Positions 4,978-21,154 are shown, numbered from the stretch's first letter. The stretch is DNA of 44,699 bases from an uncultured Arenicella sp. (GCA_937989675.1 CALKRK010000038.1:1-44699), one strand, 5' to 3'. The notes: generated by a model not told the origin, from the sequence alone. Numbers and translations: made by a program.

Positions 4978-4991
4978 AGATTACTAATAAG

Positions 4992-5019
4992 TAAATGCGT
5001 TAGCGCGGCAAAAGGTTCC
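4992..5019 (-). promoter_or_regulatory. Candidate ECF-sigma promoter for the ferritin-cytochrome-sigma operon
   Basis: Read on the minus strand, GGAACC (5014-5019) is followed after 16 bases by CATTTA (4992-4997), about 40 bases before the ATG at 4950. GGAAC is the classic -35 element of RpoE-like sigma factors; the -10 match is weak. If real it would make the operon autoregulated by its own sigma factor. Confidence 0.4.
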
Positions 5020-5062
5020 CAGATTTCAGATAAATTTACTCAAAGGCAGTTTCTAACAAACG

Positions 5063-5977
5063 CTATTGAAATGCTTTTGCGAGGTCATGCCCCGTTGTGC
5101 TCCAGGTATCGGCTTGCGCAGTAATGTAGTCTAAAACGGCTTCTAGCTTACGTATGCGATGCGGTTGCCCGAGCATCCAAGGGTGTAAATTTAGTGCGAG
5201 TATACGCCCGCCGTGGGTGTTGGTTTCTTCGAGTAAAAAGTCGTGAGCGTCACAAATCTGCTCCACATATGAATTTTCGCTGTGCAGGTTATTCATCAGA
5301 ATAAACTTGTCTTCGAGCTCATTTGAAAGAGGCATGGCGATTAAGTCGCCGTGCTTTGTGTTGAATGAATAGGGCATGTCGTCGTTCACCCAGTCGCTAA
5401 AGTATTCGATGCCTTGCTCGGCGAGTAAGTCCGGAGTGTTCTCACTTTCGCTTCTTGCTGGGCTTAGCCAGCCAGAAATATCTTGACCACTGAGTTCGCG
5501 CAGAGAGCCTAACGCTTTCTTGATGAGTTCGCGCTCTTCGTCGATGTTTTGACCACCATAGTGAAGTGCGTCCATGTGTAGACCATGGCAGGCTATTTCA
5601 TCACCACGTTCTTTGATCACGTCTAACAGGTATTGGTTACGTTCTGCGAGCCGTGTGTTGATTGTGAAGGTGGGCTTAATATTGTACTTGTCAAACAGTT
5701 TTAGAAAGCGAAAGACCCCAACTCGATTACCATAGTCACGCAAAGTATAGTGCCGTAAATCAGGGTAGGGCATGGTCATGCCGCCAGGCACTTTAAACGG
5801 CTTGCCTTGTTGGTTTATTGGAAAGAATTGCAGGCAGACGTTGACCCATAGGGCGAGCTTTTTACCGTTTGGCCATTCGACTTTTGGCCGCTCAGAGAGC
5901 ATCGACCAATCGTAACGTCGGTGGTCCATGCCGTACTGGCGTTGCGGGTATTCGAGAAATTTCTTATCCAACGTCAT
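5063..5977 (-). CDS. PuuE-like polysaccharide deacetylase-family hydrolase (paralog 1)
   Basis: 304 residues. It has the NodB-type barrel layout of the allantoinase PuuE / cyclic-imide hydrolase branch: RPKVEWPNGKKLALWV at residues 30-45, DYGNRVGVFRFLKLFDKY near 80-97, HGLHMDALHYGG near 130-141, LSPARSES near 170, DDMP near 192 and a late HPW near 267. It aligns end to end with the upstream paralog. A notable difference is Gln50 where the paralog has Glu37 in the first-strand motif. It shares a four-base ATGA overlap with that gene, so the two are probably translated together. By family and context it may open a cyclic amide or imide rather than deacetylate sugars; the substrate is unknown. 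Confidence 0.88.
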   Translation of the reverse strand: MTLDKKFLEYPQRQYGMDHRRYDWSMLSERPKVEWPNGKKLALWVNVCLQFFPINQQGKPFKVPGGMTMPYPDLRHYTLRDYGNRVGVFRFLKLFDKYNIKPTFTINTRLAERNQYLLDVIKERGDEIACHGLHMDALHYGGQNIDEERELIKKALGSLRELSGQDISGWLSPARSESENTPDLLAEQGIEYFSDWVNDDMPYSFNTKHGDLIAMPLSNELEDKFILMNNLHSENSYVEQICDAHDFLLEETNTHGGRILALNLHPWMLGQPHRIRKLEAVLDYITAQADTWSTTGHDLAKAFQ

Positions 5978-6891
5978 GCCTGTTTCCTGCTTTGAATGTC
6001 TTCGGTGGCGGTATCGTAGTAATGCTCGATAAAATAGTCGGCGATTTCACGCCCAGTAGTAACCCAAACGTCGGGGTGGCCAGTGATGTATTCGAGAGCC
6101 TCTTCAAATGCCCGCAATCGGTGCGGGCAACTGACTTGGTAGTTGTGCGTAGGCACGCACATAACGGTGCCGCTTTCTTCGCCTTCCACATAGAGCTGAT
6201 CGAAGTTGTCTTTAATAATCTGCCCGTAGCGGCGTGGTTCAATTTTATTGACGACGTAAGCAATGGTGTCGTTCATTTCCAGCGAATAAGGAATGGAGAC
6301 GAATTTCTTACCACTACGCACTTTGACCGGAGTGGGCTGGTCGTCGTGGAAAAGATCGCAGGTATAAGTACCGCCGGCCTCGGCAAAGAGGTCAATGGTA
6401 TGGTCTGAATGCGACAGTGCTGGAGCGAGATATCCAGCTGGTTTTTTGCCGGTGTGTTTTTCGATGGTGTCGACCGAGTCTTGAATCATTTCGCGTTCTT
6501 GGTCTTCCGATAGACCGTAGGTGTAACGCGTATTGTAGATGCCGTGGCTAAAGAACTCCCAGTCTCGCTCGGCACAGAGTTCGATGATTTCCGGGTGATG
6601 ATCACAGATCGCTGTTGAAAGCGAGATAGACCCGCGGATGCCGTACTTGTCTAGCAAGCGCATCTGGCGCTGGTGACCAACCCGGTTACCGTAATCTCGA
6701 ATGCTATAACCGCCAACCGCTGGTGTGGCTTGCGGCCAAGGTTTTCGATGTGGGTTCTCAGGCGGATCGAGTTCATAAAACTCAATATTTGGCGCCACCC
6801 AAAAGGCGATCTTGGCACCATTTGGCCATTCTATCTTTGGGCGATTTTGATACGGCCAGTAATCGTACAATTGCGGGTCTTCTTGATTCAT
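5974..6891 (-). CDS. PuuE-like polysaccharide deacetylase-family hydrolase (paralog 2)
   Basis: 305 residues, same family and order of motifs as the following gene: RPKIEWPNGAKIAFWV at 17-32, then PNIEFYE with Glu37, DYGNRVGHQRQMRLLDKYGIRG near 80-100, SHGIYNTRYTYG near 129-140, LAPALSHSD near 170 and DDQP near 193. This is the typical set seen in allantoinase PuuE and in bacterial cyclic imide hydrolases, which use the polysaccharide deacetylase fold on lactam or imide rings. It lies 31 bases downstream of the isochorismatase gene and four bases overlap the next paralog, so the three probably form one operon divergent from the large plus-strand operon. Exact substrate cannot be read from sequence. 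Confidence 0.88.
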   Translation of the reverse strand: MNQEDPQLYDYWPYQNRPKIEWPNGAKIAFWVAPNIEFYELDPPENPHRKPWPQATPAVGGYSIRDYGNRVGHQRQMRLLDKYGIRGSISLSTAICDHHPEIIELCAERDWEFFSHGIYNTRYTYGLSEDQEREMIQDSVDTIEKHTGKKPAGYLAPALSHSDHTIDLFAEAGGTYTCDLFHDDQPTPVKVRSGKKFVSIPYSLEMNDTIAYVVNKIEPRRYGQIIKDNFDQLYVEGEESGTVMCVPTHNYQVSCPHRLRAFEEALEYITGHPDVWVTTGREIADYFIEHYYDTATEDIQSRKQA

Positions 6892-6922
6892 AACAGCTCG
6901 AACTGAATTTCTTTGGTTTGGC

Positions 6923-7591
6923 TTAGCTGGCTTGCGAATCTAGCCAATCAAAGACCTCTCTAACGTCTAATACGTCGGCGTACTTGATGGCGAGATCCGT
7001 TAGATTAGCAAAGTGATAGCTTTCGTGTTTGTCGGCCACGCACTCTTCTGGAACGATGGTGCGGTAACCGCGCGAGAGCGAATCTACGGCGGTAGCTCGT
7101 ATGCAGCCTGAGGTAGAGCCACCAGTAACGACTACAGTATCCACTTTGTGCCACACACACAGCGATTGCAATTGCGTTTCAAAAAACGCAGAGGGCATTT
7201 TTTTGCAATAAATCGCGTCTTTGACGGGGTCAATTTCAAGGCGATCGTCAAATTCAGTGCGCTGGGATCCATGCTTAATGTTTTGTAGCGAATCTGGTGT
7301 GTCTGTACGCGTGCCCCAAACACCACAGTCTTCCCCAGACTCCATATAAGCCACATGCGTCCAAACCACAGGCCAATCTAATTTGCGAAATTTCTTGGCT
7401 AGTTCGTTGGTGTATTCCATCTGTTTAGGGTCGGTTTCATACGCGGTCTTAAACAGGTCAGTTCTGGTATAGGCTTTTTGCGGGTCGACGTTCACTAAAA
7501 TAGCTTTATCGCCGAAGCCGAACCTGGCTCGAGCCGGATTGGCTTTTAATTCTTGATAGATTTCGCGCGCAGTTTTGTCGCTGGTTTGCAT
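6923..7591 (-). CDS. Isochorismatase-family cysteine amidohydrolase
   Basis: 222 residues from the chosen start. The cysteine hydrolase triad is visible as Asp36 (ILVNVDPQKAYT), Lys130 (CKKMPSAFFET) and Cys163 (GGSTSGCIRATAVDSLS); the Lys-Cys spacing of 33 equals that of N-carbamoylsarcosine amidohydrolase. Family members release ammonia from carbamoyl or amide groups, for example N-carbamoylsarcosine, ureidoacrylate or maleamate. A longer frame opens at 7624, but ATG 7591 has AGGAG six bases upstream and is preferred. First gene of the minus-strand operon with the two PuuE-like hydrolases: a ring-opening step followed by amide cleavage is the natural reading, by inference. Confidence 0.92.
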   Translation of the reverse strand: MQTSDKTAREIYQELKANPARARFGFGDKAILVNVDPQKAYTRTDLFKTAYETDPKQMEYTNELAKKFRKLDWPVVWTHVAYMESGEDCGVWGTRTDTPDSLQNIKHGSQRTEFDDRLEIDPVKDAIYCKKMPSAFFETQLQSLCVWHKVDTVVVTGGSTSGCIRATAVDSLSRGYRTIVPEECVADKHESYHFANLTDLAIKYADVLDVREVFDWLDSQAS

Positions 7592-7596
7592 ATAGA

Positions 7597-7601
7597 CTCC
7601 T
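7597..7601 (-). promoter_or_regulatory. Ribosome binding site that fixes the start at 7591
   Basis: AGGAG on the minus strand, five bases from the ATG at 7591; no comparable site precedes the longer alternative at 7624. Confidence 0.7.
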
Positions 7602-7680
7602 GAAAACCGGGATAAGTTCGTCATATGGGCTTCAAAATCACACTATTTTGATTCAACAAAATGCCCTATGAATGTTTTAT

Positions 7681-7709
7681 TTGATATATTAGTATAACAT
7701 TAATACAAT
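7681..7709 (+). promoter_or_regulatory. Sigma-70 promoter candidate for the twelve-gene operon
   Basis: TTGATA (7681-7686), a 17-base spacer and TACAAT (7704-7709), 48 bases before the GST start. The spacer is AT-rich and contains an imperfect inverted repeat (TATTAGT / CATTAATA) that could be an operator. The divergent operon must also start within 7592-7757, so shared control is likely. Confidence 0.55.
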
Positions 7710-7757
7710 GTGTCGAGGCAAGGCGTGTTTTAGCGCCATTCAATAACTATACATCGA

Positions 7758-8435
7758 ATGAAACTCTTTAATCTTGATAACTCTCCGTTTGCGGCACGGG
7801 TCCGAATGCAAATTCGCCATAAAGGTTTGCCCATCGATTTTGTAGAGCCGCCTGAAGAACTGCGTACACAGAAATTCAGAGAAGCATATCCGTTGGGTAA
7901 GGTTCCAGCGTTAGAGCTCGATAACGGCGATATGATCGCTGAGTCGACGGCGATCATGAATTATTTAGAATCGGTGTTTCCAGAAACGCCGATGCGGCCA
8001 GCCGGGGCAATTGAACAAGCGCAAAATGAAATGTTGGTTCGATATACCGATAACCATCTTTCGCTTGGTTTGTCGCCGGTGTTTCAGGAGTTCTTTGCTT
8101 TGCTTAATTCTCAGCAAGTGCCGGATCATAAAGAGGGCCGGTTTGATTTACTGATGCCTGAGTTGCGTAAGTTGGAGCGGCTCCTCATTCAGTTGCCTTC
8201 ATACAAAGAACGCGAGTTACAAACCGGTGATTTATGCGTGGTTGGAAATTTGTACTACGTAAATGAACTAGCCAGTTATTTTGGCAAGCACGATGTATTG
8301 GAAGGCTTGAATACGGTTAATAGTTGGCTGCAATGGGTAATGGCCTACCCTGCGGTCGCGACAGAAATAGACGTGATGAATGAGTCGCACCGCGCGATGG
8401 TTAAGTCACGTTCAAAACAGGGCGGCAAAACATGA
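7758..8435 (+). CDS. Glutathione S-transferase family protein
   Basis: 225 residues. The N-terminal thioredoxin-like domain (1-78) has the DNSPFAARVRMQIRHKGL start with Ser9 as likely thiol-activating residue, the cis-proline VPALELDNGDMIAES and the ESTAIMNYLE helix; residues 90-215 form the helical domain. It could be a maleylacetoacetate/maleylpyruvate-isomerase-like or stringent-starvation-like member, but the SSCxxR zeta signature is absent. First gene of the plus-strand operon; its stop overlaps the next start by four bases. In this context it may isomerise or protect against a reactive unsaturated intermediate; this is inference. Confidence 0.88.
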   Translation: MKLFNLDNSPFAARVRMQIRHKGLPIDFVEPPEELRTQKFREAYPLGKVPALELDNGDMIAESTAIMNYLESVFPETPMRPAGAIEQAQNEMLVRYTDNHLSLGLSPVFQEFFALLNSQQVPDHKEGRFDLLMPELRKLERLLIQLPSYKERELQTGDLCVVGNLYYVNELASYFGKHDVLEGLNTVNSWLQWVMAYPAVATEIDVMNESHRAMVKSRSKQGGKT

Positions 8436-9151
8436 GTTATCGTACGATTCGCGGTGTTATCCGATACACCAGTAAAAAGCCAGAGCGTTTAGACCAGGAA
8501 CGTGGCCGCGAAATCTTCATCTTAACTCAGCAACCGGATGGTACAGACGTATTACTAGCGCATTGTGAAATAGACGATGCGCCTGCGGTAATAAGAGATG
8601 TGAGTCTCGCGTTAAATCACGATGATTCCAGTCCGTTAGACTGTTCAGTACGTTTAACGGTTGGCGATGAATTTGAGGGTAGTGGCTGGATGCGTTTTGC
8701 AAATGGCTATGCGGAATGCGAAACCTTTAACCGTAAAGACGGGCGTATTACCCAGCGCATCGAAACGCCTGAAAAAGTAAAGTGGCTCCAAGCGCACCCA
8801 ATTATTGGAGATGCGCTATTAATGAAGCTTTACGATCTAACAAAAGGCCCTGGGAAACTGCCGTTGGAAAATCTATTTCTAACGTCACCCGATCACCGTG
8901 GCGCAACCGGCCCCATGTTTTTTGTGACTGGTTTAACCTTGGTCTACGTTGGAGAAGAGGCCATTGATGTGGAAGCGGGGCATTTCCAAGCACGCCATTT
9001 TCAGGTTACCGGTACCGAAGGCAATCTGCCTGAAGAGCATCCGCCGTATGACGTTTGGTGCACGGCTGACGACGACTATATTCTGCTGCGAGCAAGTGCT
9101 GGCGGCTACATGCAAACACATTACGAATTATCAGAATTGATTCGAGACTAA
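8432..9151 (+). CDS. Conserved-looking protein of unknown function
   Basis: 239 residues with no signal peptide or membrane segment. The sequence alternates polar and hydrophobic residues as in a beta-barrel or lipocalin-like sheet (residues 4-110), followed by a short helical part with KWLQAHPIIGDALLMKLYDL (about 119-138) and another beta-rich part to the end, including GATGPMFFVTGLTLVYVG. I recognise no named family. It overlaps the GST by four bases and is followed after five bases by the CoA transferase, so it is a firm operon member. A binding or accessory role for the pathway substrate is possible, without direct evidence. Confidence 0.8.
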   Translation: MSYRTIRGVIRYTSKKPERLDQERGREIFILTQQPDGTDVLLAHCEIDDAPAVIRDVSLALNHDDSSPLDCSVRLTVGDEFEGSGWMRFANGYAECETFNRKDGRITQRIETPEKVKWLQAHPIIGDALLMKLYDLTKGPGKLPLENLFLTSPDHRGATGPMFFVTGLTLVYVGEEAIDVEAGHFQARHFQVTGTEGNLPEEHPPYDVWCTADDDYILLRASAGGYMQTHYELSELIRD

Positions 9152-9156
9152 TAAAG

Positions 9157-10359
9157 ATGAGTAAACCATTAGAAGGCGTTCGTGTACTTGACCTAACGCA
9201 CATGTTATCAGGCCCTTACGGTGCGATGATTTTAGCTGATTTAGGCGCTGAGACAATTAAAGTAGAGCCGTTGCATGGGGAGGGTACGCGTAAATTGTTG
9301 GCGACTGACCCCAAGAACTCGCTGGAAGGGATGGGCGCGTATTATCTCACCCTGAACCGAAATAAGAAGAGTACTTCCATTGATCTGAAAAACGCCGATG
9401 GGCTAGCCGTATTTTATGAGTTAGTTAAGCAAGCGGATATTGTGATCAGCAACTTCGGTGCTGGTGTGCCAGAAAGACTGGGCATTGATTACGAAAGTTT
9501 GAGCAAGGTTAACCCCCGAATCATCACCTGCGTAGTTTCAGGTTTTGGTTCCGATGGTCCGAACCATAAACGCCCGGCATTCGATCAGGTTGCGCAGGCT
9601 ACTGGCGGTGGCATGTCAATTACTGGCTCCGGGAAAGAGGATCAGGTGCGCGCGGGTATTCCGATCGGCGATTTAGGCGGCGGTATGTTTGGTGTGATGG
9701 GCGTTTTATCGGCGTTGTATGAGCGCGAACGCTCAGGCCGCGGGCAACACGTTGATATCTCAATGCTCGATTGCCAAATTTCCTTATTGAACTATATGGC
9801 GACCATGTACTTTCTATCTGGAGACGACCCATACCCTATTGGTAACTCGCATTTTGTGCACGTGCCTTATGACACATTTAAGTGCGCAGACGGTTTTCTG
9901 GTGATTGCGGTTATTACTGATAATTTCTGGACTAATCTTAAAGAAGTAGTGTCGGTACCTGAATTTGACGACGCCGAGCTGGATGGTCAGCCAGGCCGGT
10001 GGGCAAATCGAGACATGATCACCGAGAAATTAAATGAAGCTTTAGCATCACAGACTGTCTCCTATTGGGTTGAGAAATTAGAAGCCAAGCGCATACCGTG
10101 CGCTCCGGTTAATCGATTTAGCCAGGCACTTTCGGATGAACAAGTTTTGCACCGTAATATGGTCGTGGACTTAAAACATCCTTCGGGCGCTTCGACTAAG
10201 GGGCCGGGCAATCCGATAAAACTTTCTCGCACTGGAGAGGAAACGTTTACGGCGGCACCTTTGCTTGGAGAACATACCGATGAAGTATTTAAAGAGTTAC
10301 TCGGTTACGACGATGAGAAGCTCGCGCAGCTCAAACAAAGTGGAGTAATAGGCGGATGA
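9157..10359 (+). CDS. Family III CoA transferase (CaiB/BaiF type)
   Basis: 400 residues, normal for the family. The N-terminal GVRVLDLTHMLSGPYGAMIL and ADLGAETIKVEP motifs bind CoA, and NRNKKSTSIDLKN follows. Asp172 in IPIGDLGGGMFG sits where the catalytic Asp169 of formyl-CoA transferase lies. RSGRGQHVDISMLD is also typical. The enzyme moves CoA between carboxylic acids, so it would activate a pathway acid. Four-base overlap with the HMG-CoA lyase gene suggests that the CoA ester made here is passed to that lyase. Confidence 0.93.
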   Translation: MSKPLEGVRVLDLTHMLSGPYGAMILADLGAETIKVEPLHGEGTRKLLATDPKNSLEGMGAYYLTLNRNKKSTSIDLKNADGLAVFYELVKQADIVISNFGAGVPERLGIDYESLSKVNPRIITCVVSGFGSDGPNHKRPAFDQVAQATGGGMSITGSGKEDQVRAGIPIGDLGGGMFGVMGVLSALYERERSGRGQHVDISMLDCQISLLNYMATMYFLSGDDPYPIGNSHFVHVPYDTFKCADGFLVIAVITDNFWTNLKEVVSVPEFDDAELDGQPGRWANRDMITEKLNEALASQTVSYWVEKLEAKRIPCAPVNRFSQALSDEQVLHRNMVVDLKHPSGASTKGPGNPIKLSRTGEETFTAAPLLGEHTDEVFKELLGYDDEKLAQLKQSGVIGG

Positions 10360-11282
10360 GTGAACGCGTTATTATTAACGATGTAGGCCCGCGAGATGGC
10401 CTGCAAAATCAACCTAAAATACTAAGCGTTGTAGAGCGGCTAGAACTTATTCGGGCCTTGCAAGCCGCCAATGTGGAACATATAGAGTTTGGCGCATTTG
10501 TGTCGCCCAAGGCTGTGCCGGCAATGGCCGGAAGTGATGACATTATCAAAATGATGCAAGGCGAGCGCGGAGAGCTCTCGGCCTTGATTCCTAATCGACG
10601 TGGCTATGATTTGGCCGTGGAAGCAGGAACTAAGACGGTGGCAATGGTGGCCTACGGCAGCGAAGGCATGGCACAAAAAAATGTTCGTATGAGCCGCGCT
10701 GAAGCCGACAATGCCACCCTACAAATCATCGAGCAGGCGAAGCGTGATCGAGTTAAGGTGATTGCGACGATAGCCACGGCGTTTGAATGCCCATTTGATG
10801 GCCCCACCGACGCCGGTGTGGTTGCGGAAACTACGGCTAAGTTTTTAGAGGCTGGGGTTAGCTCGGTGGTAATTGCTGACACTATTGGTGCGGCTAATCC
10901 GGGGCAAGTTAAATCGCTAATGACGCGATTGGTATCCGATAACGGCGCACGCCAGCTTGCTTGCCATTTTCACGATACGCGAGCCTTAGGCATGGCCAAT
11001 GTATTTGCAGGATTGGAAACAGGTATCCGTCGGTTCGATGCGTCAATTTCTGGCTTAGGTGGTTGCCCGTTTGCACCAGGTGCTACTGGCAATATTGCCA
11101 CCGAGGATACCGTTATGATGCTGCATCAAATGGGTTTTGAGACTGGCATCGATTTGGACAAATTAATACGAGCGTCGGATTTGGCTGAACAACTGACAGG
11201 AACGGCTCCTGGCGGGCGTTCTAAGCCATGGCTTAAACCCTTTTTAGAAAGGCAAAACGAAAAACAAAACGCGAGGACATAA
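10356..11282 (+). CDS. Hydroxymethylglutaryl-CoA lyase family protein
   Basis: 308 residues, a TIM-barrel of the HMGL family. DVGPRDGLQNQ at 9-19 (Arg13 and Asp14 for catalysis and metal), VEHIEFGAFVSPKAVPAMA near 36-54, the metal-binding HFHDT near 208-212, and the signature GLGGCPFAPGATGNIATED with the catalytic Cys. The family splits HMG-CoA to acetyl-CoA and acetoacetate, or related 3-hydroxy-3-alkyl dicarboxylyl-CoAs. Beside a CoA transferase rather than leucine-degradation genes, it may cleave a branched hydroxy-diacid CoA ester formed in this pathway. The symbol mvaB fits the family, but true substrate is uncertain. Confidence 0.93.
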   Translation: MSERVIINDVGPRDGLQNQPKILSVVERLELIRALQAANVEHIEFGAFVSPKAVPAMAGSDDIIKMMQGERGELSALIPNRRGYDLAVEAGTKTVAMVAYGSEGMAQKNVRMSRAEADNATLQIIEQAKRDRVKVIATIATAFECPFDGPTDAGVVAETTAKFLEAGVSSVVIADTIGAANPGQVKSLMTRLVSDNGARQLACHFHDTRALGMANVFAGLETGIRRFDASISGLGGCPFAPGATGNIATEDTVMMLHQMGFETGIDLDKLIRASDLAEQLTGTAPGGRSKPWLKPFLERQNEKQNART

Positions 11283-11283
11283 C

Positions 11284-13344: not shown

Positions 13345-13356
13345 TAGGAGAACGTC

Positions 13357-15228
13357 ATGTCAGCAAAGATTATTGAAACAAATAATACGCCGCTCAACAA
13401 AATAGACGTAGATGGCGTCACGGTCGACATAATAGAAAACGCCTTGCGTAATGCGCGCGAAGAAATGGACGCTGTACTATTTAGAACTGCGATGTCTCCA
13501 GGCATTCGAGAGCAAGGTGATTGCTTTCCAATGATTGCCAACAAAGAAGGCAAGATGGTGGTTGGGCAGTTCGGTTCGTTCATTGGTCCTTTTATGGACG
13601 CCTACGACAGCGAAATCGAAGAAGGCGATATCATTCTCACTAACGACCCATATATGTGCAATGCAGCGGTATCGCATTTACCTGATTGGATAGTGTTGGT
13701 GCCGGTCTTCAAAGAAGGCAGGCATATAGCTTGGTCAGCCATGTTCGGTCACATGTCGGATAATGGCGGTATGGTGCCTGGTTCGATTCCGATTGAAGCC
13801 ACAACGATCTATCAAGAAGGTATTCGCATACCGCCAACCAAGTTGTATAAAAAGGGTGTGTTGCAAAGCGACATTCTAGAGTTGATTTTACACAACGTGC
13901 GCACCTCCCAGTGGAATCGCTTTGATTTAAACGCGCTAGTGGCGGCCTGTAATACCGCGGCTAAACGCTGCGTGGAAATGGCGGAGCGCTTTGGTGACGA
14001 TGTTTTCTACTCCACCATGGACATCATGTTGCAACGTAATTATTCGGCGATGAAACACATTATTGAAATGTTTATCCCCGAAGAGCCGCGTGTATTTGAA
14101 GACTACATTTGTGACGATGGCATGGGCATGGGGCCGTACAAAATAAAGTGTAAAATGTGGCGTGAAGGCTCGGTGGCGCACTTTGATTTTGATGGTACAG
14201 ATCCGCAAGCTCAGAGCTCTGTGAATTTTTACATGAACGAAGACATGTTCAAGATGTTCTTTGGTTCGTTCACGATTAACGTTGTTGACCCACAGATCGT
14301 GTTCAACGACGGGTTCTATGACCTGGTTGAAGTGAATATTCCGCAAGGCAGTTTACTTAAACCGAATTTTCCTGCGGCCTTGTCGGGACGTACTCATGCG
14401 CTAGGGAGAATCTTTGACATCATGGGCGCGTTACTCGGCCAAGGTGCCCCGGAGATGATGCTGAACGCAGCGGGTTTTTCCGATTCACCGCACTTGTTCT
14501 ATTCGGGTTACGACGACAACGGCGAATGGTTTCAGTTGTTCCAAATTGGTTTTGGCGGAGTGCCGGGCAGACCAGTTGGCGATGGCCCTGATGGGCACTC
14601 TTTGTGGCCTGGTTTTACTAATGTGCCGAATGAATTTATTGAGTCGTATTTCCCGCTACGCATTGAGCGCTACGAAACCATACCGGACTCGGGTGGCGCT
14701 GGTTTGCATCGTGGTGGTAACGGTTTGAGTGTGGCATATCGCTTTTTATGCGATGGCGACGTGGGTATTCACGACGAGCGATGGCTAACATACCCTTGGG
14801 GTGTGTTGGGCGGTGAAACTGGCTTACGTTCAACTAAGCGCCTTGTCAGAACCGATGGCTCTGAAGAATGGCTGCCAGCGAAAGCTGAGGGCATCAAAGT
14901 GAAAGCTGGTGACCTATTATATTTTAATACCTGGGGGGGCGGCGGCTGGGGTGACCCATTTGAGCGCGAACCTGAACTGGTAATGCACGACGTAAATCGC
15001 AGGTTAGTGACGCGTGAAGGCGCTAAGCGTTATGGTGTTGTGATCGCCGATGATGGTTCGGTGGATGTGAGCGCGACGGAAGCACTGAGAAACGAGTTAC
15101 GAGCGAATAGAGCCGACAAACCAATGTTTAATTTTGGCGGTGAGTTAGAGGAAATCCGTGCACGTTGTGAGGCCGAAACGCATTTGCCTGCGCCAGTGAA
15201 GCCAGAATTTGTTGGCGCTTCTAGTTAA
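13357..15228 (+). CDS. hyuB: Hydantoinase/oxoprolinase subunit B (HyuB family)
   Basis: 623 residues, slightly longer than many HyuB because of a C-terminal tail after about residue 525. Family hallmarks: MDAVLFRTAMSPGIREQGD near 38-56, LTNDPYMCNAAVSHLPDW near 92-110, MFGHMSDNGGMVPGS near 129-143, and DSGGAGLHRGGNGL near 447-460, followed by GGGGWGDPFER. AGGAG precedes the ATG. Partner of HyuA in an ATP-dependent amidohydrolase or carboxylase. Together with the PuuE-like genes this gives the locus two independent ring-opening chemistries. Confidence 0.94.
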   Translation: MSAKIIETNNTPLNKIDVDGVTVDIIENALRNAREEMDAVLFRTAMSPGIREQGDCFPMIANKEGKMVVGQFGSFIGPFMDAYDSEIEEGDIILTNDPYMCNAAVSHLPDWIVLVPVFKEGRHIAWSAMFGHMSDNGGMVPGSIPIEATTIYQEGIRIPPTKLYKKGVLQSDILELILHNVRTSQWNRFDLNALVAACNTAAKRCVEMAERFGDDVFYSTMDIMLQRNYSAMKHIIEMFIPEEPRVFEDYICDDGMGMGPYKIKCKMWREGSVAHFDFDGTDPQAQSSVNFYMNEDMFKMFFGSFTINVVDPQIVFNDGFYDLVEVNIPQGSLLKPNFPAALSGRTHALGRIFDIMGALLGQGAPEMMLNAAGFSDSPHLFYSGYDDNGEWFQLFQIGFGGVPGRPVGDGPDGHSLWPGFTNVPNEFIESYFPLRIERYETIPDSGGAGLHRGGNGLSVAYRFLCDGDVGIHDERWLTYPWGVLGGETGLRSTKRLVRTDGSEEWLPAKAEGIKVKAGDLLYFNTWGGGGWGDPFEREPELVMHDVNRRLVTREGAKRYGVVIADDGSVDVSATEALRNELRANRADKPMFNFGGELEEIRARCEAETHLPAPVKPEFVGASS

Positions 15229-15265
15229 GCGCTTGTAAGAACATCCATATAACGGCTAGAAAATC

Positions 15266-15865
15266 GTGGATCTAAGGCAGAACGATATCGCATTTGGCCG
15301 ACAACCAGCGTTGATCGTTGTCGACATAATTAATGGCTTCACTGATCCAGCTTGCCTGCTTGGGCACAAGTGTGAAGCTGTGGTTGAGGCAAATCAAGAA
15401 TTGTTGTCGATCTTTCGTAAGTACGCATGGCCGATATTCTTTACAACAGTCGTATACGAAAATGACCATCAGGCGAGGGTGTTCAGAGAGAAGTTGCCGG
15501 CCTTGAATGTATTGCAAGCCGGTTCAAAATGGGTCGAGATCGATTCAGCTATGGCGCGCCGTGTTGAAGAACCCGTGATCAAAAAACATTGGGCCAGCGG
15601 TTTTCATGGCACTGACTTACACGAGCGCTTACAGGCACTTGGCGTGGACTCCTTGCTTGTTACTGGTCTCACTACCAGCGGTTGCGTGCGAGCGACAGCG
15701 GTAGATGGTTTACAAAACGACTATCGAGTTATTGTGGCGGCTGACGCCGTGGGCGACCGTAATCAGCAAGCGCATGAGGCGAATTTGTTTGATTTGGCCG
15801 CGAAGTACACAGAAGTAAAAAACAACAGTGAACTGATTACGTTACTAAACGCAATCAAAGCATAA
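15266..15865 (+). CDS. N-carbamoylsarcosine amidase-like isochorismatase-family hydrolase
   Basis: 199 residues with triad Asp20 (ALIVVDIINGF), Lys107 (VIKKHWASGFHGT) and Cys140 (LTTSGCVRATAVDGLQ). The segment from ASGFHGTDL to DRNQQAHEANLFDLAAKY closely follows N-carbamoylsarcosine amidohydrolase. The start is GTG at 15266: an in-frame stop at 15257-15259 rules out anything much longer, and the next Met is far inside the domain. HyuAB followed by such an amidase is the order of N-methylhydantoin breakdown (ring opening, then loss of carbon dioxide and ammonia). It is the second isochorismatase-family enzyme of the locus. Confidence 0.92.
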   Translation: MDLRQNDIAFGRQPALIVVDIINGFTDPACLLGHKCEAVVEANQELLSIFRKYAWPIFFTTVVYENDHQARVFREKLPALNVLQAGSKWVEIDSAMARRVEEPVIKKHWASGFHGTDLHERLQALGVDSLLVTGLTTSGCVRATAVDGLQNDYRVIVAADAVGDRNQQAHEANLFDLAAKYTEVKNNSELITLLNAIKA

Positions 15866-15889
15866 ATTTAACGCAGTACGAGGTTTAAA

Positions 15890-17479
15890 ATGATTCCACA
15901 ACAACAGTCGAATGAGTCCCTCATCGATGAATTGGCCACCATTGTTGGTGCTGAGCATGTCCTAACGGATGCGGAATCGTGCGCTTTATATGCTCAGGAT
16001 GTATTTACCAAAGCTATTCCAGCCATGGCTGTGGTGCAGCCAGAAAATACTGAACAGCTCGCGGATGCGGTAAAAACAGCGGTTGGAGCTGGTTGTGATG
16101 TGATACCGCGTGGTGGCGGTATGTCGTATACCAGTGGTTATGTCCCAAGCTCTGATAATGCGGTTTTGTTTGACCTCAGGCGCATGAATCGAGTATTGGA
16201 AATCAATATCGAAGATATGTATGTTACAGCCGAGTGCGGATGTACCTGGAAAGAGTTGCACGAAGCACTTCAGGAAACGGGCCTTCGTACCCCGTATTGG
16301 GGGACTTTGTCCGGCAGTAAAGCAAGCATTGGCGGTGGATTCTCACAGAACTCCATCTTCTGGGGTTCCGGGCAGTTTGGTACGGCGGCAGACAATGTGA
16401 TTGGCTTAGAAGTTGTCCTCGCCGACGGTAGCGTTGTTAAGACGGGTTCTGGTGCGCAGATTAACAGCCAACCTTTTTTCCGCCATTTTGGCCCTGATCT
16501 TACCGGGTTGTTTACCTGTGACTCTGGGGCCCTTGGCTTTAAGGCAACGGCGACTATTCGCTTAATTAAAAAGTTTGAGGGGCGTCAATTTGCGGCCTTT
16601 GACTTTAAAACAGGCGAAGACGCGATTTCAGCCATGTCCGAGATTTCGCGGCAAGGTTTAGCTATGGAGTGTTTTGGCTTTGATCCGTTTTTGCAATCTC
16701 AGCGTATGAAGCGAGAAAGCTTAGCGAAAGATGTTAAAGCCTTAGCGGGCGTTATGAAAGCATCCGGATCGGTTTTGGGTGCGCTCAAAGACGGTGCCAA
16801 GGTAGCGCTTGCCGGTCGTCGCTATATGGACGATGTTGATCACTCGGTGCAGATAATGATCGAAGACTATTCTCAGACAGGAGCTGACGCCAAGGCTAAT
16901 CAAATTAGGGAGATCGCCAAACGTTTTAATGGCCGTGAAATAGAAAATAGTATTCCAAAGATTACACGTGCCAACCCTTTCGGCCCGGTTAACGGTATGT
17001 TGGGTCCAGAAGGTGAGCGATGGGTACCCTCGCACGCATTGGTGTCGCACTCTAAGGCGGTCACAGGTTACCAAGCCATTCTCGAGCTATTTGCCAAGCA
17101 TCAAAAAGAAATGGAGGCGCATCAAGTCGAAACCGGATTTTTATACGCGACGATATCGTCGAATGCCTTCGTGTTAGAGCCGGTCTTCTTTTGGCCAGAC
17201 AGCGCGGAAGCCTTGCATCGACAGAGTGTTGAGGCAGACCATCTGGCTAAGCTCCCGGTACATAAAGAGGATCTTGAGGCTAGAGCCTTTGTTGCAAAGG
17301 TGCGTGAAGAGTTTGCTGAACTATTCCGTGATATCGGCGGTGTGCATATGCAAATTGGCAAGTCATATCGATATGCAGACGGCATAGACGCGAATTCGTT
17401 TGCTCTGATTGAAGCGATTAAAAAAGCGGTTGACCCTACGAATCAAGTTAATCCAGGCGCGTTGGGGGTTGCTAAGTAA
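15890..17479 (+). CDS. FAD-binding oxidoreductase (VAO/GlcD type)
   Basis: 529 residues. FAD_binding_4 domain over about 45-225 with VQPENTEQLADAVKTAV, PRGGGMSYTSGY and the flavin-pyrophosphate region GSKASIGGGFSQNSIFWGSGQFGTAADN; the C-terminal half is a substrate domain like that of the FAD-linked oxidases, ending in DPTNQVNPGALG. Such enzymes oxidise hydroxy acids, alcohols or p-alkyl phenols. No signal peptide is visible. The stop and the next ATG overlap by one base. The substrate in this pathway is unknown; oxidation of a hydroxylated intermediate is a reasonable guess. Confidence 0.9.
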   Translation: MIPQQQSNESLIDELATIVGAEHVLTDAESCALYAQDVFTKAIPAMAVVQPENTEQLADAVKTAVGAGCDVIPRGGGMSYTSGYVPSSDNAVLFDLRRMNRVLEINIEDMYVTAECGCTWKELHEALQETGLRTPYWGTLSGSKASIGGGFSQNSIFWGSGQFGTAADNVIGLEVVLADGSVVKTGSGAQINSQPFFRHFGPDLTGLFTCDSGALGFKATATIRLIKKFEGRQFAAFDFKTGEDAISAMSEISRQGLAMECFGFDPFLQSQRMKRESLAKDVKALAGVMKASGSVLGALKDGAKVALAGRRYMDDVDHSVQIMIEDYSQTGADAKANQIREIAKRFNGREIENSIPKITRANPFGPVNGMLGPEGERWVPSHALVSHSKAVTGYQAILELFAKHQKEMEAHQVETGFLYATISSNAFVLEPVFFWPDSAEALHRQSVEADHLAKLPVHKEDLEARAFVAKVREEFAELFRDIGGVHMQIGKSYRYADGIDANSFALIEAIKKAVDPTNQVNPGALGVAK

Positions 17480-18039
17480 TGTCTAGAGTTGACCCAATAA
17501 AGCGAGAGAATCTCGACCCTGAAATGCAGGCGATAATGAATGCAGGCGATGAAATTATGGGTTTCACATCCAACGATGCGCTCATCATGGCTTACAAACC
17601 AGATTTGTTAAAAGCGATGCTTGGTCTCGTGCAGTCGGTATATCAGCCAGGCACAATACCTCTGGATTTAAAGAAGCTAGTCGCTGTGATGACTAGCAGC
17701 GCAGCTGGTTGCCAATATTGTGAAGCGCACACTCAATACGGAGCGATCAAAGAAGGCATCGCCGCCGAGAAGTTGGCCGCGATCTGGGAGTACGCAACTA
17801 GCCCTCTATTTGATGATGCTGAGCGCGCGGCTTTGGATGTTGCGCGCGCCGCTGCGTTTACTCCAAATGAAACTACCGACCAACAATTTTCCGAATTGAA
17901 ACGTTTTTATTCCAGTGAGCAAATAGTGGAAATCGTTGGCGTGATAGCCATGTTCGGTTTTCTTAATCGCTGGAATTCGACTATGTCGACCGACCTTGAA
18001 CAAACACCGAAAGCCGCCGTAAAAGCGAGCGGCCTATAA
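17479..18039 (+). CDS. Carboxymuconolactone decarboxylase/AhpD-like protein
   Basis: 186 residues, all helical. The redox motif C-Q-Y-C-E-A-H (Cys78, Cys81, His84) lies in the SSAAGCQYCEAHTQYGA helix as in AhpD-like members of the CMD family. These proteins act as peroxidase partners or in poorly defined catabolic steps. One-base overlap with the FAD oxidase suggests that it may deal with peroxide or a reactive product of that enzyme; this is inference. The next gene starts four bases after its stop. Confidence 0.88.
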   Translation: MSRVDPIKRENLDPEMQAIMNAGDEIMGFTSNDALIMAYKPDLLKAMLGLVQSVYQPGTIPLDLKKLVAVMTSSAAGCQYCEAHTQYGAIKEGIAAEKLAAIWEYATSPLFDDAERAALDVARAAAFTPNETTDQQFSELKRFYSSEQIVEIVGVIAMFGFLNRWNSTMSTDLEQTPKAAVKASGL

Positions 18040-18043
18040 CGCT

Positions 18044-19042
18044 ATGACACAGAACCGACAAGTCCATCTTAAATCTACGCCCGAGAATAACCCTGAACCT
18101 GGAAATTTCGAAGTCGTCTCTACACCAATGCCTGATATCTCGGATGGCGAAGTGCTGTGTAAAACTGAGTATCTCTCGCTCGACCCTTATATGCGTAGCC
18201 AAATAGCTGGCCGCCATATGTCTGGTTCGATTCAACCCGGAGACCTAATGCGAGGTGAAACTATTAGTACGGTTGTCGAATCTCGACACGCGGATTTCGC
18301 TGCCGGTGATATCGTACGCGGTTTTGGCAACTGGCAAGAATATTCGGTGCACAGTGCGAATGAACTTAGCGCGCAGCCAAAAGAAATTTCCCCGCCTTCC
18401 TACGGTTTGTCGGTGTTAGGTATGCCCGGCTTGACGGCCTACGCGGGTTTAGTTTGGACCGCCAAACCCAAAGCGGGTGACGTTGTTGTTATACCTGCGG
18501 CGACTGGTGGTGTTGGCTCGACCGCCGGGCAGTTAGCGAAAATACATGGGTGTACTGTGATCGGAATCGCTGGGTCTGATGTTAAGTGCGACTATGCTGT
18601 TAAAGAGTTGGGCTACGATGCATGTATAAATCGTAAGACTGAGAATTTAGCTGAAAAGCTAACGGAATATTGCCCCGATGGTATTGATATCTATTTTGAT
18701 TTGGTCGGCGGCGAAACATTGAATTTGGTTTGTACAAAACTGGCACTTAATGCGCGTGTTATTTTGTGTGGGCTAATGGAAGATTACAATAAGCCGACGC
18801 GCACTCCTGGTCCATTACCGGGGCCGATAATCGGTGCACGTGCGACTCTAAGCGGATTGGTCGTATATGATTTTGAACCACGCCGAGGTGAGTTTATTGA
18901 AGCTTGTTTGCCATACGTTAATGATGGGCGTTTGAGTATGCGCGAAGATATGGCACATGGGATTGATGCAGCGCCCGAGGCGTTTTGCCGTTTAATGCGC
19001 GGAGAAAATCAAGGCAAGGCTATGGTGAAAGTTTCAAGCTGA
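18044..19042 (+). CDS. Zinc-free MDR-family NADP-dependent oxidoreductase
   Basis: 332 residues of the leukotriene-B4-dehydrogenase/CurA branch: YLSLDPYMRSQI near residues 43-54, GLTAYAGLVWTAKPKAGD near 128-145, and the nucleotide-binding loop AATGGVGSTAGQLAK near 151-165. Zinc ligands of alcohol dehydrogenases are absent. The family reduces activated carbon-carbon double bonds (enones) with NADPH. In the operon it could saturate an unsaturated intermediate. It is placed three bases before the VOC-protein gene. Confidence 0.9.
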   Translation: MTQNRQVHLKSTPENNPEPGNFEVVSTPMPDISDGEVLCKTEYLSLDPYMRSQIAGRHMSGSIQPGDLMRGETISTVVESRHADFAAGDIVRGFGNWQEYSVHSANELSAQPKEISPPSYGLSVLGMPGLTAYAGLVWTAKPKAGDVVVIPAATGGVGSTAGQLAKIHGCTVIGIAGSDVKCDYAVKELGYDACINRKTENLAEKLTEYCPDGIDIYFDLVGGETLNLVCTKLALNARVILCGLMEDYNKPTRTPGPLPGPIIGARATLSGLVVYDFEPRRGEFIEACLPYVNDGRLSMREDMAHGIDAAPEAFCRLMRGENQGKAMVKVSS

Positions 19043-19045
19043 TTT

Positions 19046-20077
19046 ATGTTTAAACACATCTCAATTTTATTGAGTATTGCGTGGTCTGTATCGGTTGCCG
19101 CGATTGATGAGGCCGTTCAGCCGATAAGCACACAACCATGGAAAGAAGTTCTAATAAGCGTCCATAGCCTTGAGCGGACGGCTAAATTTTTTACCGAGGT
19201 CGCGGGTTACAGAGAGCGCTGGCGGGGAGAACTAAGCCAGGACGAATTGCAGTTCTTTGGTCTACCTGAAACAGCGCGTGGCGAGGCACTCTTGCTTGGG
19301 CATGATGATTATCAGTCGGGTTTGGTGCGTTTAGTTCGTTTTGATAACGTTGGTCCTAAAGCCGTGATGCGGCCTGGTGCAAGAGCATGGGATACCGGTT
19401 GCTATTTCAGTATTATGGTAAGGGCAAAGAACTTGAGCTCGCTTTACCAGCAGGCGATTGAGTTAGGGTGGTTAACAGAAACGCCGATTACCCCCTTGGC
19501 CTTTGGCGCGTCAAAATTGAATGTGGTTATCTTTAAGGGCCCGGATGGTGTTCAAGTTCAGGCATATGAGCGTCTTGCGCCGCCTTTGCCAGAAGAAGTG
19601 GGCAACTTTCAAAGTATGAGCCGCCCCTTCAATATTATGCAAATGGTTGGAAATCGAGACCGTTCATATGCTTTTTTTAAAGAGGTATTAGGTTTCGATT
19701 CTTGGTTTTCTGGGGCGCCTTACTTGGCGGAGAAGGCCGAGTATAGCCCGATTGGCATTCCGTATAGTTTATCGACCTCAGTGCGGTATCACGCGGCCAT
19801 CGTGTACCCGGTTAAGGGCGAATTTGGTCGGATGGAGCTGATCGACATTCTTGATATTCAGGGGCGAGATCATAGCAAACGATGTGACGCTCCGAATGTA
19901 GGCATTTTGTCAGTTCGTTTTAAGGTAAGAGACATCGAAAAAGCAAGGAATATGATAGCTGATAGAGCTTGGCCAATAACTCGAGGCATCACAAAAGCGA
20001 ATGTAGCTCCCTTCGGAGAATTACAACTTTTCAGCGTGAAGAGCCCCGATGGTGCAACTATTACTTTCTATCAATAG
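19046..20077 (+). CDS. Exported protein with two VOC (glyoxalase-fold) domains
   Basis: 343 residues. A signal peptide (residues 1-19, ending SVAA) is followed by a first VOC module (about 28-175, with VLISVHSLERTAKFFTEVAGY and GPDGVQVQAYERL) and a second (about 190-343, with MVGNRDRSYAFFKEVLGF and SPDGATITFY). Paired VOC domains form one metal-binding dioxygenase or lyase site in several families, but I cannot confirm the ligands. Periplasmic location is unusual for VOC enzymes and suggests action on an incoming substrate. A gap of 66 bases separates it from the CpeT-family gene. Confidence 0.85.
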   Translation: MFKHISILLSIAWSVSVAAIDEAVQPISTQPWKEVLISVHSLERTAKFFTEVAGYRERWRGELSQDELQFFGLPETARGEALLLGHDDYQSGLVRLVRFDNVGPKAVMRPGARAWDTGCYFSIMVRAKNLSSLYQQAIELGWLTETPITPLAFGASKLNVVIFKGPDGVQVQAYERLAPPLPEEVGNFQSMSRPFNIMQMVGNRDRSYAFFKEVLGFDSWFSGAPYLAEKAEYSPIGIPYSLSTSVRYHAAIVYPVKGEFGRMELIDILDIQGRDHSKRCDAPNVGILSVRFKVRDIEKARNMIADRAWPITRGITKANVAPFGELQLFSVKSPDGATITFYQ

Positions 20078-20131
20078 AGGGTTAAACAGTAGAGAGTTAA
20101 ATTGTTTGGCGAAAATACAGGAAGACTACTT

Positions 20132-20137
20132 AGGAGG
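20132..20137 (+). promoter_or_regulatory. Ribosome binding site for the CpeT-family gene
   Basis: A full AGGAGG six bases before the ATG at 20144. It settles the start against the in-frame TTG at 20102, which would add 14 residues in front of the signal peptide. Confidence 0.85.
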
Positions 20138-20143
20138 CTTAGA

Positions 20144-21154
20144 ATGCTATCGAAATCTGCGAGTACGAGTTGGCTGTTTGGTTTACTCATTTTTATTTTG
20201 TCACCGTCATGGGCTCAGGATTCAAGTTCGCGCTATCTTAAGCAAGAGTTAGATTATCTGATGACCATATGGCCAGGTGACTATGATAATCAAGAACAAG
20301 TAAGCTTTGATGCACAAGCTCAAGGGCGTGATGAATCGGAGCAGCTCCGTGTTCATGGATTTGTACATCGGGTAGATATGCCGTCTTTAGGGGAATTTGT
20401 ACTGTATCTCGAAGAGCGTATTAACGACGATGGTCTGCAGCTTCATTATCAGAGGCTATATTCGCTGAGTAGTGACGAGTCGGCCAGAGCAATTCGCGTA
20501 ACGCCTTATAGGGTTATTACTAACTTACCTAGAAAGGATGCATCAGAAGGCGGAGGGCCAGATCTGGGTGGTTTAGCCGATCTAGAGTTTGAACAAATAT
20601 CGGGGTGTGATTTTCTAATTCGCAGAGATGGCGAACTTTTCCGGGCGTTTAACAATCCGCAAGAGTGTTCTATTGAAGGTCAGCTCTATGAGCGCGAGTT
20701 TGTTGTTTCGAGCGAAATTTATGGCTTTCGCGAGCGTCGAATAGCAAAGGCTGATGATGCCTCAACGTCGAAAGCCAATTTCAAGTGGCATCGTATGCAG
20801 CGCGCTCGTTGGTTTGCGTGCATGATCGATGTACCTAAAAATCGGCCGGAGCGTTCAGACCATACTCAACACTACATTAGGGTTCATGATCAAGGAGGAG
20901 CTTTCAAGTTTCGCCACCCCGATGGCCGCAACATGCGTTTGCTCATGCGCAATACTTGGTCATATGGTATGCAGCGTGAGACGTTTTTTATTGGTGTGTT
21001 TGAGGTGTCAGCTAGCGACAAGTTGCTCGTTTACTCGTGGGGCACACCAGGAGCCGATCGGATTGGCTTGAATCCAGGCTATGTTCGAATACAGTGTGAC
21101 TTGGATACGCCAGAAAATCGACGGCTTCAAAAGGGCTTAAGACCAGATTCATAA
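20144..21154 (+). CDS. Exported CpeT/CpcT-family (chromophore lyase-like) protein
   Basis: 336 residues from the ATG chosen by its ribosome site. A signal peptide (1-24, ending PSWAQ) precedes a CpeT/CpcT domain: YLMTIWPGDYDNQEQ near residue 38-52 corresponds to the family's G-x-[FY]-x-N-x-x-Q start, then YLEERINDDGLQLHYQRLYSL and a GCDFLIRRDGELFRAF segment matching the G-C-D ... F motif, and cysteines near 178 and 188. In cyanobacteria these calycin-fold proteins attach phycobilins to cysteines and act in the cytoplasm. Here the protein is predicted to be exported from a bacterium with no visible phycobiliprotein genes, at the end of a catabolic operon. About 130 residues after the domain are unassigned. 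It may bind a bilin-like or other hydrophobic substrate in the periplasm; this is a hypothesis. Confidence 0.78.
   Translation: MLSKSASTSWLFGLLIFILSPSWAQDSSSRYLKQELDYLMTIWPGDYDNQEQVSFDAQAQGRDESEQLRVHGFVHRVDMPSLGEFVLYLEERINDDGLQLHYQRLYSLSSDESARAIRVTPYRVITNLPRKDASEGGGPDLGGLADLEFEQISGCDFLIRRDGELFRAFNNPQECSIEGQLYEREFVVSSEIYGFRERRIAKADDASTSKANFKWHRMQRARWFACMIDVPKNRPERSDHTQHYIRVHDQGGAFKFRHPDGRNMRLLMRNTWSYGMQRETFFIGVFEVSASDKLLVYSWGTPGADRIGLNPGYVRIQCDLDTPENRRLQKGLRPDS

Follow-up and report, generated by a model that had tools for sequence, protein, structure and literature searches.

A recurrent proteobacterial gene system from an uncultured Arenicella sp., tentatively assigned to the degradation of substituted cyclic imides and lactams

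A contig of an uncultured Arenicella sp. (GCA_937989675.1, CALKRK010000038.1) carries, between positions 5063 and 21154, a dense set of genes for ring hydrolases, amidases and C-C cleaving enzymes, which raises the question of what ring compound they attack and where it comes from. The contig, C38 of a 3.58-Mb, 80% complete assembly of 288 contigs (genome G000), was analysed over its full length of 44,699 nucleotides and is called the window below; L-numbers denote genome stretches examined and G-numbers genomes. A sequence-only reading of the window had described fifteen tightly packed genes in two divergent operons, and the open reading frames (ORFs) were indeed located there: three on the minus strand (5063-5977, 5974-6891 and 6923-7624) and twelve on the plus strand, spanning 7758 to 21154. 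Inside both operons neighbouring genes overlap or lie 1-37 bases apart, and the divergent first genes are separated by 133 bases. The families it had named were borne out by Pfam matches, including a weak Glyoxalase match for the VOC protein. A literature search, with most subscription journals outside its scope, found no description of this gene set; the system is apparently undescribed and recurs in Alpha-, Beta- and Gammaproteobacteria. Our answer, held with a little less than even confidence, is that the locus serves the import and mineralisation of substituted cyclic-imide or lactam fragments, most likely originating from open-chain or oxidised tetrapyrroles.

Recurrence of the hydrolase-amidase triad and of the FAD-gene module

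The minus-strand operon encodes two PuuE-like ring hydrolases, PuuE2 (5974..6891) and the second member of the conserved pair, PuuE1 (5063..5977), together with the third member of the triad, the isochorismatase-fold amidase IsoA (6923..7624). Both PuuE-like proteins exceeded the cut-off of PF01522 (Polysacc_deac_1; 37.4 and 40.6 bits, cut-off 23.1) and stayed below that of the allantoinase model TIGR03212 (112.9 bits for PuuE1 and 124.8 bits for PuuE2, cut-off 424.6), the nearest solved chain to PuuE2 by sequence being the PuuE allantoinase 3cl6. IsoA belongs to PF00857, and its nearest solved chains, 26st and 4l07, are both N-carbamoylsarcosine amidohydrolase. Recurrence was counted in 34 stretches besides the window, in 27 of which a relative of PuuE2 reached 45% identity or more; the seven without one (L054, L063-L067 and L138) were kept out of the denominator. 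Of these 27 stretches, 25 had PuuE1 and 24 had IsoA no more than 3 kb from PuuE2, and 23 had both; a lack of co-occurrence in other genomes, by which the sequence-only reading would have been refuted, was thus not observed. The rows are stretches rather than independent events (L013 and L062 come from one genome; L125 and L129 are near-identical islands), most were chosen for PuuE2 or for the gene of the FAD-dependent oxidase (FAD), and the ORFs were called mechanically as the longest non-overlapping frames, with some genes merged or mis-started, for example in L052. The IsoA-PuuE2-PuuE1 triad is well shown to be a conserved unit. PuuE2 matches at E 1e-60 occurred in 2/273 class-draw genomes with the own genome left out, and in 11/398 genomes of a phylum draw with the own genome included. 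In L057, L059 and L060, from G285, G286 and G291, the same neighbour clusters (c45, c46, c47 and c48) flanked the triad.

Larger islands were encountered in several lineages. A stretch of G046, reached in the class draw with PuuE2 as the sole query, combined LeuC, LeuD, PuuE2, PuuE1, IsoA, the enone reductase (ER) and FAD with an MmgE/PrpD gene, a second similar-looking gene, an amidase and a hydrolase-like gene. On the Sphingomonas plasmid pJE1, relatives of ten of the fifteen window genes were present at 26-70% identity in the initial 45 kb, namely PuuE1, PuuE2, IsoA, ORF8432, the CaiB-type CoA-transferase (CaiB), the HMG-CoA-lyase-type enzyme (HMGL), HyuA, HyuB, FAD (two) and ER, accompanied by genes for an acyl-CoA synthetase, a lyase, two LeuCD pairs, MFS, TonB, GntR, MmgE/PrpD, a HapK-like protein and an aldehyde dehydrogenase; no match for GST, IsoB, CMD, VOC or CpeT was found in these 45 kb. 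A near-identical island was present on a Sphingobium plasmid, and L130, from a genome of the window's class, was about as dense in gene content as pJE1. A compact form in L131 and L132 consisted of a lyase, IsoA, PuuE2, PuuE1, a flavocytochrome-c-type FAD protein, GntR, LeuCD and, as judged by eye, an apparent TRAP carrier. The grouping goes beyond chance, since numerous members of the set are found together again in other genomes.

The second anchor is the FAD-dependent oxidase/dehydrogenase of the FAD_binding_4 type (15890..17479, plus strand; PF01565), whose PDB matches covered its N-terminal part only and were headed by D-lactate dehydrogenase and glycolate oxidase, with PCMH and VAO lower. 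Scanning genome contigs by exact peptide patterns, which returns a part of the relatives only, gave at least 19 loci, titled Gammaproteobacteria or a family or genus thereof in 17 cases and Sphingomonadales and Pseudomonadota in one each. The Arenicella metagenome-assembled genome stretch L022 held the triad, ORF8432, CaiB, HMGL, IsoB, FAD, CMD and ER, that is 10 of the 15 window genes, and continued with a membrane protein, MFS, a hydrolase and a small protein, the order being kept and the identities reaching 53-88% overall; its 18.5 kb gave no match to GST, HyuAB, VOC, CpeT or a TonB receptor. In the Porticoccaceae stretch L013, two further genes, one aldehyde-dehydrogenase-like and one of nitrilase type, were interspersed among the triad, GST, ORF8432, FAD and ER. 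Nine further loci (L014-L018, L020, L021, L026 and L031, the last with a FAD fragment), seven titled Woeseiaceae and two Gammaproteobacteria, had around FAD varying sets of ER, nitrilase, DUF1330, DUF1838, VOC and MFS genes and also, variably, TonB, CpeT-type, CaiB, HMGL and LeuCD genes; the triad was absent within the stretch in all nine. The FAD relatives at about 40% identity (L024, L025, L027, L029 and L030) had a different neighbourhood, and four of their five genomes (not G288) carried the triad; they were kept in the counts out of 19, while a stricter set of 12 omits these five, L028 and the fragment L031. A conserved gene of 153-161 residues (c20) stood within about 2 kb after this FAD subfamily in L024, L025, L029 and L030; three of these stretches also had a cytochrome c-like gene, an arrangement perhaps comparable to that of flavocytochrome hydroxylases. 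The own genome also held a second, distant set on contig C167 (L064), with relatives of FAD (37%), PuuE2 (29%), IsoB (38%) and a flavocytochrome-type FAD protein (44%) and an MFS gene, perhaps a paralogous pathway.

Whether the triad and the FAD module belong to one system depends on how often they travel together. The triad was missing from the stretch in 17 of the 19 FAD loci, and on shared contigs FAD and PuuE2 were separated by about 31 kb (G280), 38 kb (G285), 24 kb (G286) and 200 kb (G287). Such distances, of tens of kilobases or more in several genomes, would suit a loose catabolic island in which independent pathways are packed together, the triad being one and FAD, ER and CpeT another. 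This explanation seems quite improbable, however, as PuuE2 at 75-89% identity was found in 12 of the 19 FAD-gene genomes other than the own one (one hit being a 70-residue fragment) against 2/273 class genomes at the laxer threshold given above, and as both modules share one stretch in the window, L013, L022, L113, L125 and L129. Because of this linkage in six stretches and the co-occurrence, exceptions included, it is well supported that the triad and the rest of the window work as a single catabolic system directed at a ring amide or imide; that they form one pathway is not proven, since those 17 loci have the FAD block apart from the core, as far as the stretches reach.

Enzymes of the window and the proposed sequence of reactions

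The plus-strand operon offers a second type of ring-opening enzyme. The HyuA-type subunit of an ATP-dependent lactamase/hydantoinase (11284..13344; PF01968, Hydantoinase_A; PF05378, PF19278) had CapA as its nearest NCBIfam model and is followed by the HyuB-type subunit (13357..15228; PF02538, Hydantoinase_B). HyuA and HyuB relatives reached 54% and 64% identity on pJE1 and 72% and 78% in L106, which lies beside a Woeseiaceae FAD locus and joins them with CaiB, HMGL and LeuCD. The best solved HyuAB relative was the N-methylhydantoinase 7hk5 (E 7e-134), and the best solved relative of both amidases was the N-carbamoylsarcosine amidohydrolase 26st (E 1.3e-41 for IsoB, 6e-30 for IsoA), as a hydantoin- or creatinine-type route would have it, with HyuAB opening N-methylhydantoin and IsoA and IsoB acting as N-carbamoylsarcosine amidohydrolases. 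Against this, the best NCBIfam model of both Hyu subunits was caprolactamase, below its cut-off, HyuAB was unmatched in the L022 and L013 stretches despite their core, and such a route leaves no place for CaiB, HMGL or LeuCD, which together make it very unlikely.

IsoB, the second isochorismatase-fold amidase (15266..15865, plus strand; PF00857), also matched 3ot4 and 3uao, the latter of which we take to be the Bordetella maleamate amidohydrolase. This match would be expected from a pyridine-type cleavage as in nicotinate catabolism, where an alpha/beta hydrolase deformylates N-formylmaleamate and IsoB would act as a NicF-like maleamate amidohydrolase, and an alpha/beta hydrolase does recur in the related loci. 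Yet neither a pyridine hydroxylase nor a dihydroxypyridine dioxygenase was recognised among the window genes scanned, and the PuuE pair and HyuAB would be left unexplained, so that we give this route hardly any credence.

The genes that could process the resulting acid include a class III, CaiB-type CoA-transferase (9157..10359, plus strand; PF02515), with succinyl-CoA:mesaconate CoA-transferase as the nearest NCBIfam model (NF041294, 294.1 bits, under the cut-off of 700) and PDB matches to 10uh, named formyl-CoA transferase, and 9br7, named succinate--hydroxymethylglutarate CoA-transferase. The adjoining HMG-CoA-lyase-type C-C lyase HMGL (10356..11282, plus strand; PF00682, HMGL-like; 2ftp, E 1.2e-62) falls into the subfamily hydroxymethylglutaryl-CoA lyase (NF004283, 302.9 bits against a cut-off of 246), which denotes subfamily membership only. 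The enone reductase ER, of the curcumin-reductase type (18044..19042, plus strand; PF16884, ADH_N_2, and PF00107, ADH_zinc_N), had curcumin reductase NF058644 as its closest NCBIfam model (346 bits, under the cut-off of 440), and its gene adjoined FAD in several relatives.

Two enzyme types absent from the sequence-only reading were found near the core in related loci. Eight of the 27 stretches had a large subunit of an aconitase/LeuCD-family hydratase, of any type, no farther than 20 kb from PuuE2, eight had a lyase of the phosphoenolpyruvate (PEP)-mutase family within that distance, and seven had both (L053, L123, L125, L129, L130, L131 and L132). The sole good LeuC match of G000, on contig C257 and accompanied by LeuD at the contig end, shared 61% identity with the triad-adjacent LeuC of L130. 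In a LeuC tree of 44 rows, midpoint-rooted for drawing only, it grouped with 17 other rows with support of 98/96, the members including LeuC of L130, pJE1, L113, the Woeseiaceae loci and G244; all 11 other genomes seen in this group hold another LeuC in a different group. Because of this grouping, a plain leucine-pathway role of the G000 gene appears less likely. Hydratase large subunits near 30% identity were found in L053, L023, L123, L127 and L128, and the presence of several hydratase types at one place argues for the hydration step itself. The lyase of L130, truncated where the stretch ends, best matched 4iqd, named carboxyvinyl-carboxyphosphonate phosphorylmutase, and lower the petal death protein, methylisocitrate lyases and 2,3-dimethylmalate lyase (E 6.8e-36), which places it in a family that includes enzymes for branched malates and from which the exact substrate is unreadable; the pJE1 lyase was nearest to prpB, below its cut-off. 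Three genes resembling tryptophan halogenases by eye stood near the own-genome LeuCD pair (L144, C257 positions 1628-6216).

Taken together, six steps may be proposed, in which each reaction, the order, the compartments and the substrate are read from families, linkage and predicted fold. A TonB receptor would first bring the substrate into the periplasm, where the CpeT-family and VOC proteins could bind or process it, and MFS carriers would move fragments inward. In a second step the FAD oxidase and the enone reductase would set the oxidation state of bridges and side chains. Third, HyuAB would open lactam rings with ATP, and PuuE1/PuuE2, as we infer from their family, would open imide rings to half-amides (maleamates), from which, fourth, IsoA and IsoB would release the amide as ammonia to leave 2-methyl-3-X-maleates. 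Fifth, a LeuCD-type hydratase would add water to give substituted malates, and sixth, the class III CoA-transferase with HMGL, on which the window may rely for cleavage, or a PEP-mutase-family lyase in its relatives, would cleave the malate, with pyruvate and either an acid or an acyl-CoA as products. That a substituted maleate would be formed from the imide by way of the maleamate, then hydrated to the malate and split between carbons, is a good inference because related loci add hydratases and lyases, and steps three to six are probably a substituted-imide pathway. The sequence-only reading had proposed ring opening, a diacid, CoA activation and C-C cleavage; the hydratases and lyases near the core agree with that logic, while its single pathway is unproven. 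Its gene set held, whereas it lacked the hydratase step, the larger extent of the locus, the spread across classes and CpeT as a clue to the substrate.

The remaining genes of the two operons, all on the plus strand, begin with a glutathione S-transferase-like protein (7758..8435; PF13417), with a 47% relative in L013. Next comes ORF8432 (8432..9151), a protein of 239 residues for which no Pfam or NCBIfam model scored over a cut-off; it is predicted to form a beta-barrel-like, DUF1849-like fold (AlphaFold2 pLDDT 88.9; Foldseek match to the DUF1849 beta-barrel-like structure 6ntr, E 9e-7). It aligned with eight relatives at 46-82% identity, reached 45-82% in the related loci, and recurred near the triad or beside ER. 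The CMD protein, of the carboxymuconolactone-decarboxylase family (17479..18039; PF02627), had a 73% relative in L022. The two-domain VOC protein (19046..20077; weak PF00903), perhaps exported to judge by eye from its hydrophobic N-terminus, had relatives of 29% beside FAD in L019 and L023 and of 55-57% beside LeuC in L178 and L179. Small HapK-like (REDY-like) proteins with a short-chain dehydrogenase recurred in L014, L054, L125, L130, L178 and L179, the one of L130 belonging to PF11639; HapK comes from clusters for prodigiosin-type compounds, another pyrrole pigment.

The borders of the locus had probably been drawn too narrowly at 5063-21154, since relatives of the genes at 26660-28824 and 31313-32598 come after the same core in L022. 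These are, on the minus strand, the small membrane protein Mem220 (26660..27331), without a Pfam family over cut-off and with a 68% relative between ER and MFS in L022, and an MFS carrier probably of this system (27352..28824; PF07690), 80% identical in L022 and 55% in L177, where it lies beside HMGL-CaiB-LeuD-LeuC. On the plus strand they are the alpha/beta hydrolase (31313..32152; PF00561; 53% in L022, 56% in L177) and a protein of 148 residues without a Pfam family (32152..32598), with a 70% relative after the hydrolase in L022. The TonB-dependent receptor between them (29108..31282, plus strand; PF00593, PF07715), with no relative in the L022 stretch, is possibly part of the system, an assignment by position only. 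Just downstream of PuuE1, a compact minus-strand group (3190-4950) comprised genes for an extracytoplasmic-function sigma factor, a cytochrome c and a ferritin-like protein (PF13668) that seems to carry a Tat-type signal. After the CpeT gene, on the opposite strand (21199-23255), a membrane-protein-like gene with a Fis-type helix-turn-helix domain, which could be a sensor-regulator, was followed by a KAS III-type gene.

The CpeT-family protein and the possible tetrapyrrole origin of the imides

The last gene of the operon encodes a CpeT/CpcT-family protein (20102..21154, plus strand), perhaps exported to judge by eye from its N-terminus, which matched PF06206 with E 9.5e-8 and 32.6 bits, over the gathering cut-off of 21. 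No PDB chain was found for it by sequence with phmmer. Its AlphaFold2 model (mean pLDDT 79) had as the top Foldseek matches CpcT with and without phycocyanobilin (4o4s/4o4o; E 1e-6, TM-score by target length 0.67-0.68, rmsd 5.1), and at E below 0.001 only CpcT, phage CpeT and the plant CRL protein appeared. The N-termini of its relatives resembled signal peptides or lipoprotein signals by eye. PF06206 was detected in 3/274 class-draw genomes (the own one, G011 and G244, the last of which itself carries a related locus), as compared with 11/19 FAD-gene genomes against 2/273 class genomes without the own one (Fisher p 2e-13, ignoring kinship). Among the 12 genomes with FAD at 50% identity or more it was present in five, G275, G276, G277, G280 and G284 (p 1e-6, ignoring kinship), and in these as well as in G000 and G244 a CpeT copy was located within 10 kb of FAD, LeuC or ORF8432. 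A short CpeT-family gene occurred in another conserved neighbourhood in L103, L107 and L110, so that a part of the genome count comes from a different context. A function of CpeT in bilin synthesis was rejected, and one in phycobilisome building is hardly likely, with CpeS in 0/26 and heme oxygenase in 1/26 genomes; neither was found in the own genome (80% complete).

These features suggest, as a possible but doubtful genetic basis of bacterial tetrapyrrole mineralisation, that the exported CpeT protein captures bilins, that the oxidase and reductase dismantle them, and that HyuAB, PuuE and the amidases lead from each pyrrole-derived ring to a 2-methyl-3-X-maleate. Hydration and splitting of this product would yield pyruvate and an acid, glutarate-type from hematinic acid and C4 from the ethyl or vinyl rings. 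In chlorophyll, heme and bilins each pyrrole ring bears two substituents in beta position, one of which is usually methyl, and an imide with two substituents would match a maleate with two. A role for HyuAB and for the second amidase would follow from BOXes, lactams whose side chain holds an amide. PMC7318184 lists as tetrapyrrole oxidation products methyl, methyl-ethyl and methyl-vinyl maleimide, hematinic acid, BOXes and propentdyopents, and cites maleimides and hematinic acid from senescent leaves and lake sediments. Passages of PMC8669743 call maleimides degradation products of tetrapyrrole pigments and name no enzyme acting on them. The tetrapyrrole origin of the imides is put forward with considerable reserve.

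A number of observations weigh against the proposed function and origin. PMC7318184 detected hematinic acid but no maleimides in the leaves it studied. The genomes with the two nearest loci, G274 and G283, have no CpeT, and a search of 50 kb of pJE1 gave none either. Six of the 11 CpeT-positive FAD-gene genomes (G285, G286 and G288-G291) have FAD at about 40% identity, and no linkage of CpeT was seen there in the copies examined, those of G285, G286, G290 and G291 and one of the two in G288. The scarcity of CpeS and heme oxygenase points the same way, as do the 17 FAD loci lacking the triad within the stretch, the distances of about 24-38 kb between FAD and triad in G280, G285 and G286, and the TRAP-like carrier beside the core in L131/L132, which points to a small acid in these two. 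The LeuC of G000 could serve leucine synthesis, as this genome (80% complete) showed no other LeuC. The triad-adjacent LeuC of L131 and the second LeuC of pJE1/L129 fell in the other tree group, and the leuC score divides the groups roughly (own 538.6, L130 582.7, other-group LeuC 730.6, cut-off 560.25). The lyases resembled phosphorylmutase and methylisocitrate lyase more closely than dimethylmalate lyase, and the only G000 lyase match, in a genome 80% complete, was 33% identical and stood beside genes of methylcitrate-cycle type by eye.

Several of these points would equally be expected if the locus had a general role in degrading small cyclic imides from other sources, with CpeT as an unrelated lipocalin-like passenger. 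Plant- and soil-associated plasmids carry the core without a CpeT match in the stretches searched, the core stands beside the apparent TRAP carrier in L131/L132, L124 and L126 combine it with amidases, an amidohydrolase or HyuAB without a LeuC match in the stretch, and the two nearest genomes lack CpeT. Nevertheless, TonB receptors and the apparently exported CpeT, VOC and DUF1838 proteins recur in several relatives, none of which a small soluble imide seemingly needs, and CpeT was enriched even on the stricter count (5/12 against 2/273). We regard this alternative as somewhat unlikely.

According to PMC7318184, some 10^12 kg of chlorophyll turn over annually, and what becomes of its breakdown products in abiotic decay and herbivory is to a large extent an open question. 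If tetrapyrroles are indeed the source, an open question of carbon and nitrogen cycling would become testable in a cultured strain and marker genes would be available for metagenomes. One named strain, Thalassotalea algicola M1531, carries FAD, VOC, CpeT and DUF1838 genes as well as a hydratase and the triad. Even with another imide, a pathway conserved across classes, the uncharacterised PuuE1/PuuE2 pair, ORF8432, the small membrane protein and DUF1838 would be new.

Comparison with known systems

The CpeT protein of the window resembles the CpcT/CpeT phycobiliprotein lyases (4o4s, 4o4o and 5hi8) in Pfam family and predicted fold, but is longer, has an apparent export signal and shows 10-18% identity to them in structural alignment. 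HyuAB belongs to the same families as caprolactamase CapAB, N-methylhydantoinase and 5-oxoprolinase, although HyuA and HyuB, with 548.9 and 201.9 bits, remained below the CapAB cut-offs (NF050156/NF050157, 1000 each). The PuuE allantoinases are of the same fold family as the PuuE pair and are its best solved relatives, yet the pair scored far under the TIGR03212 cut-off. The nicotinate fermentation of Eubacterium barkeri has a dimethylmaleate branch, to which the present system is alike in the LeuCD-type hydratase and PEP-mutase-family lyase near the core in seven stretches; it differs in the proposed imide entry and in that the window has CaiB and HMGL, with the hydratase on another contig. 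In the cyclic imide transformation of Pseudomonas and Blastobacter an imidase is followed by a half-amidase, and the logic proposed here, PuuE-fold ring opening and then amide removal, is alike. Here, however, two paralogous hydrolases are joined with an isochorismatase-fold amidase in a conserved triad, with hydratases, a CoA-transferase and lyases nearby in several of the relatives.

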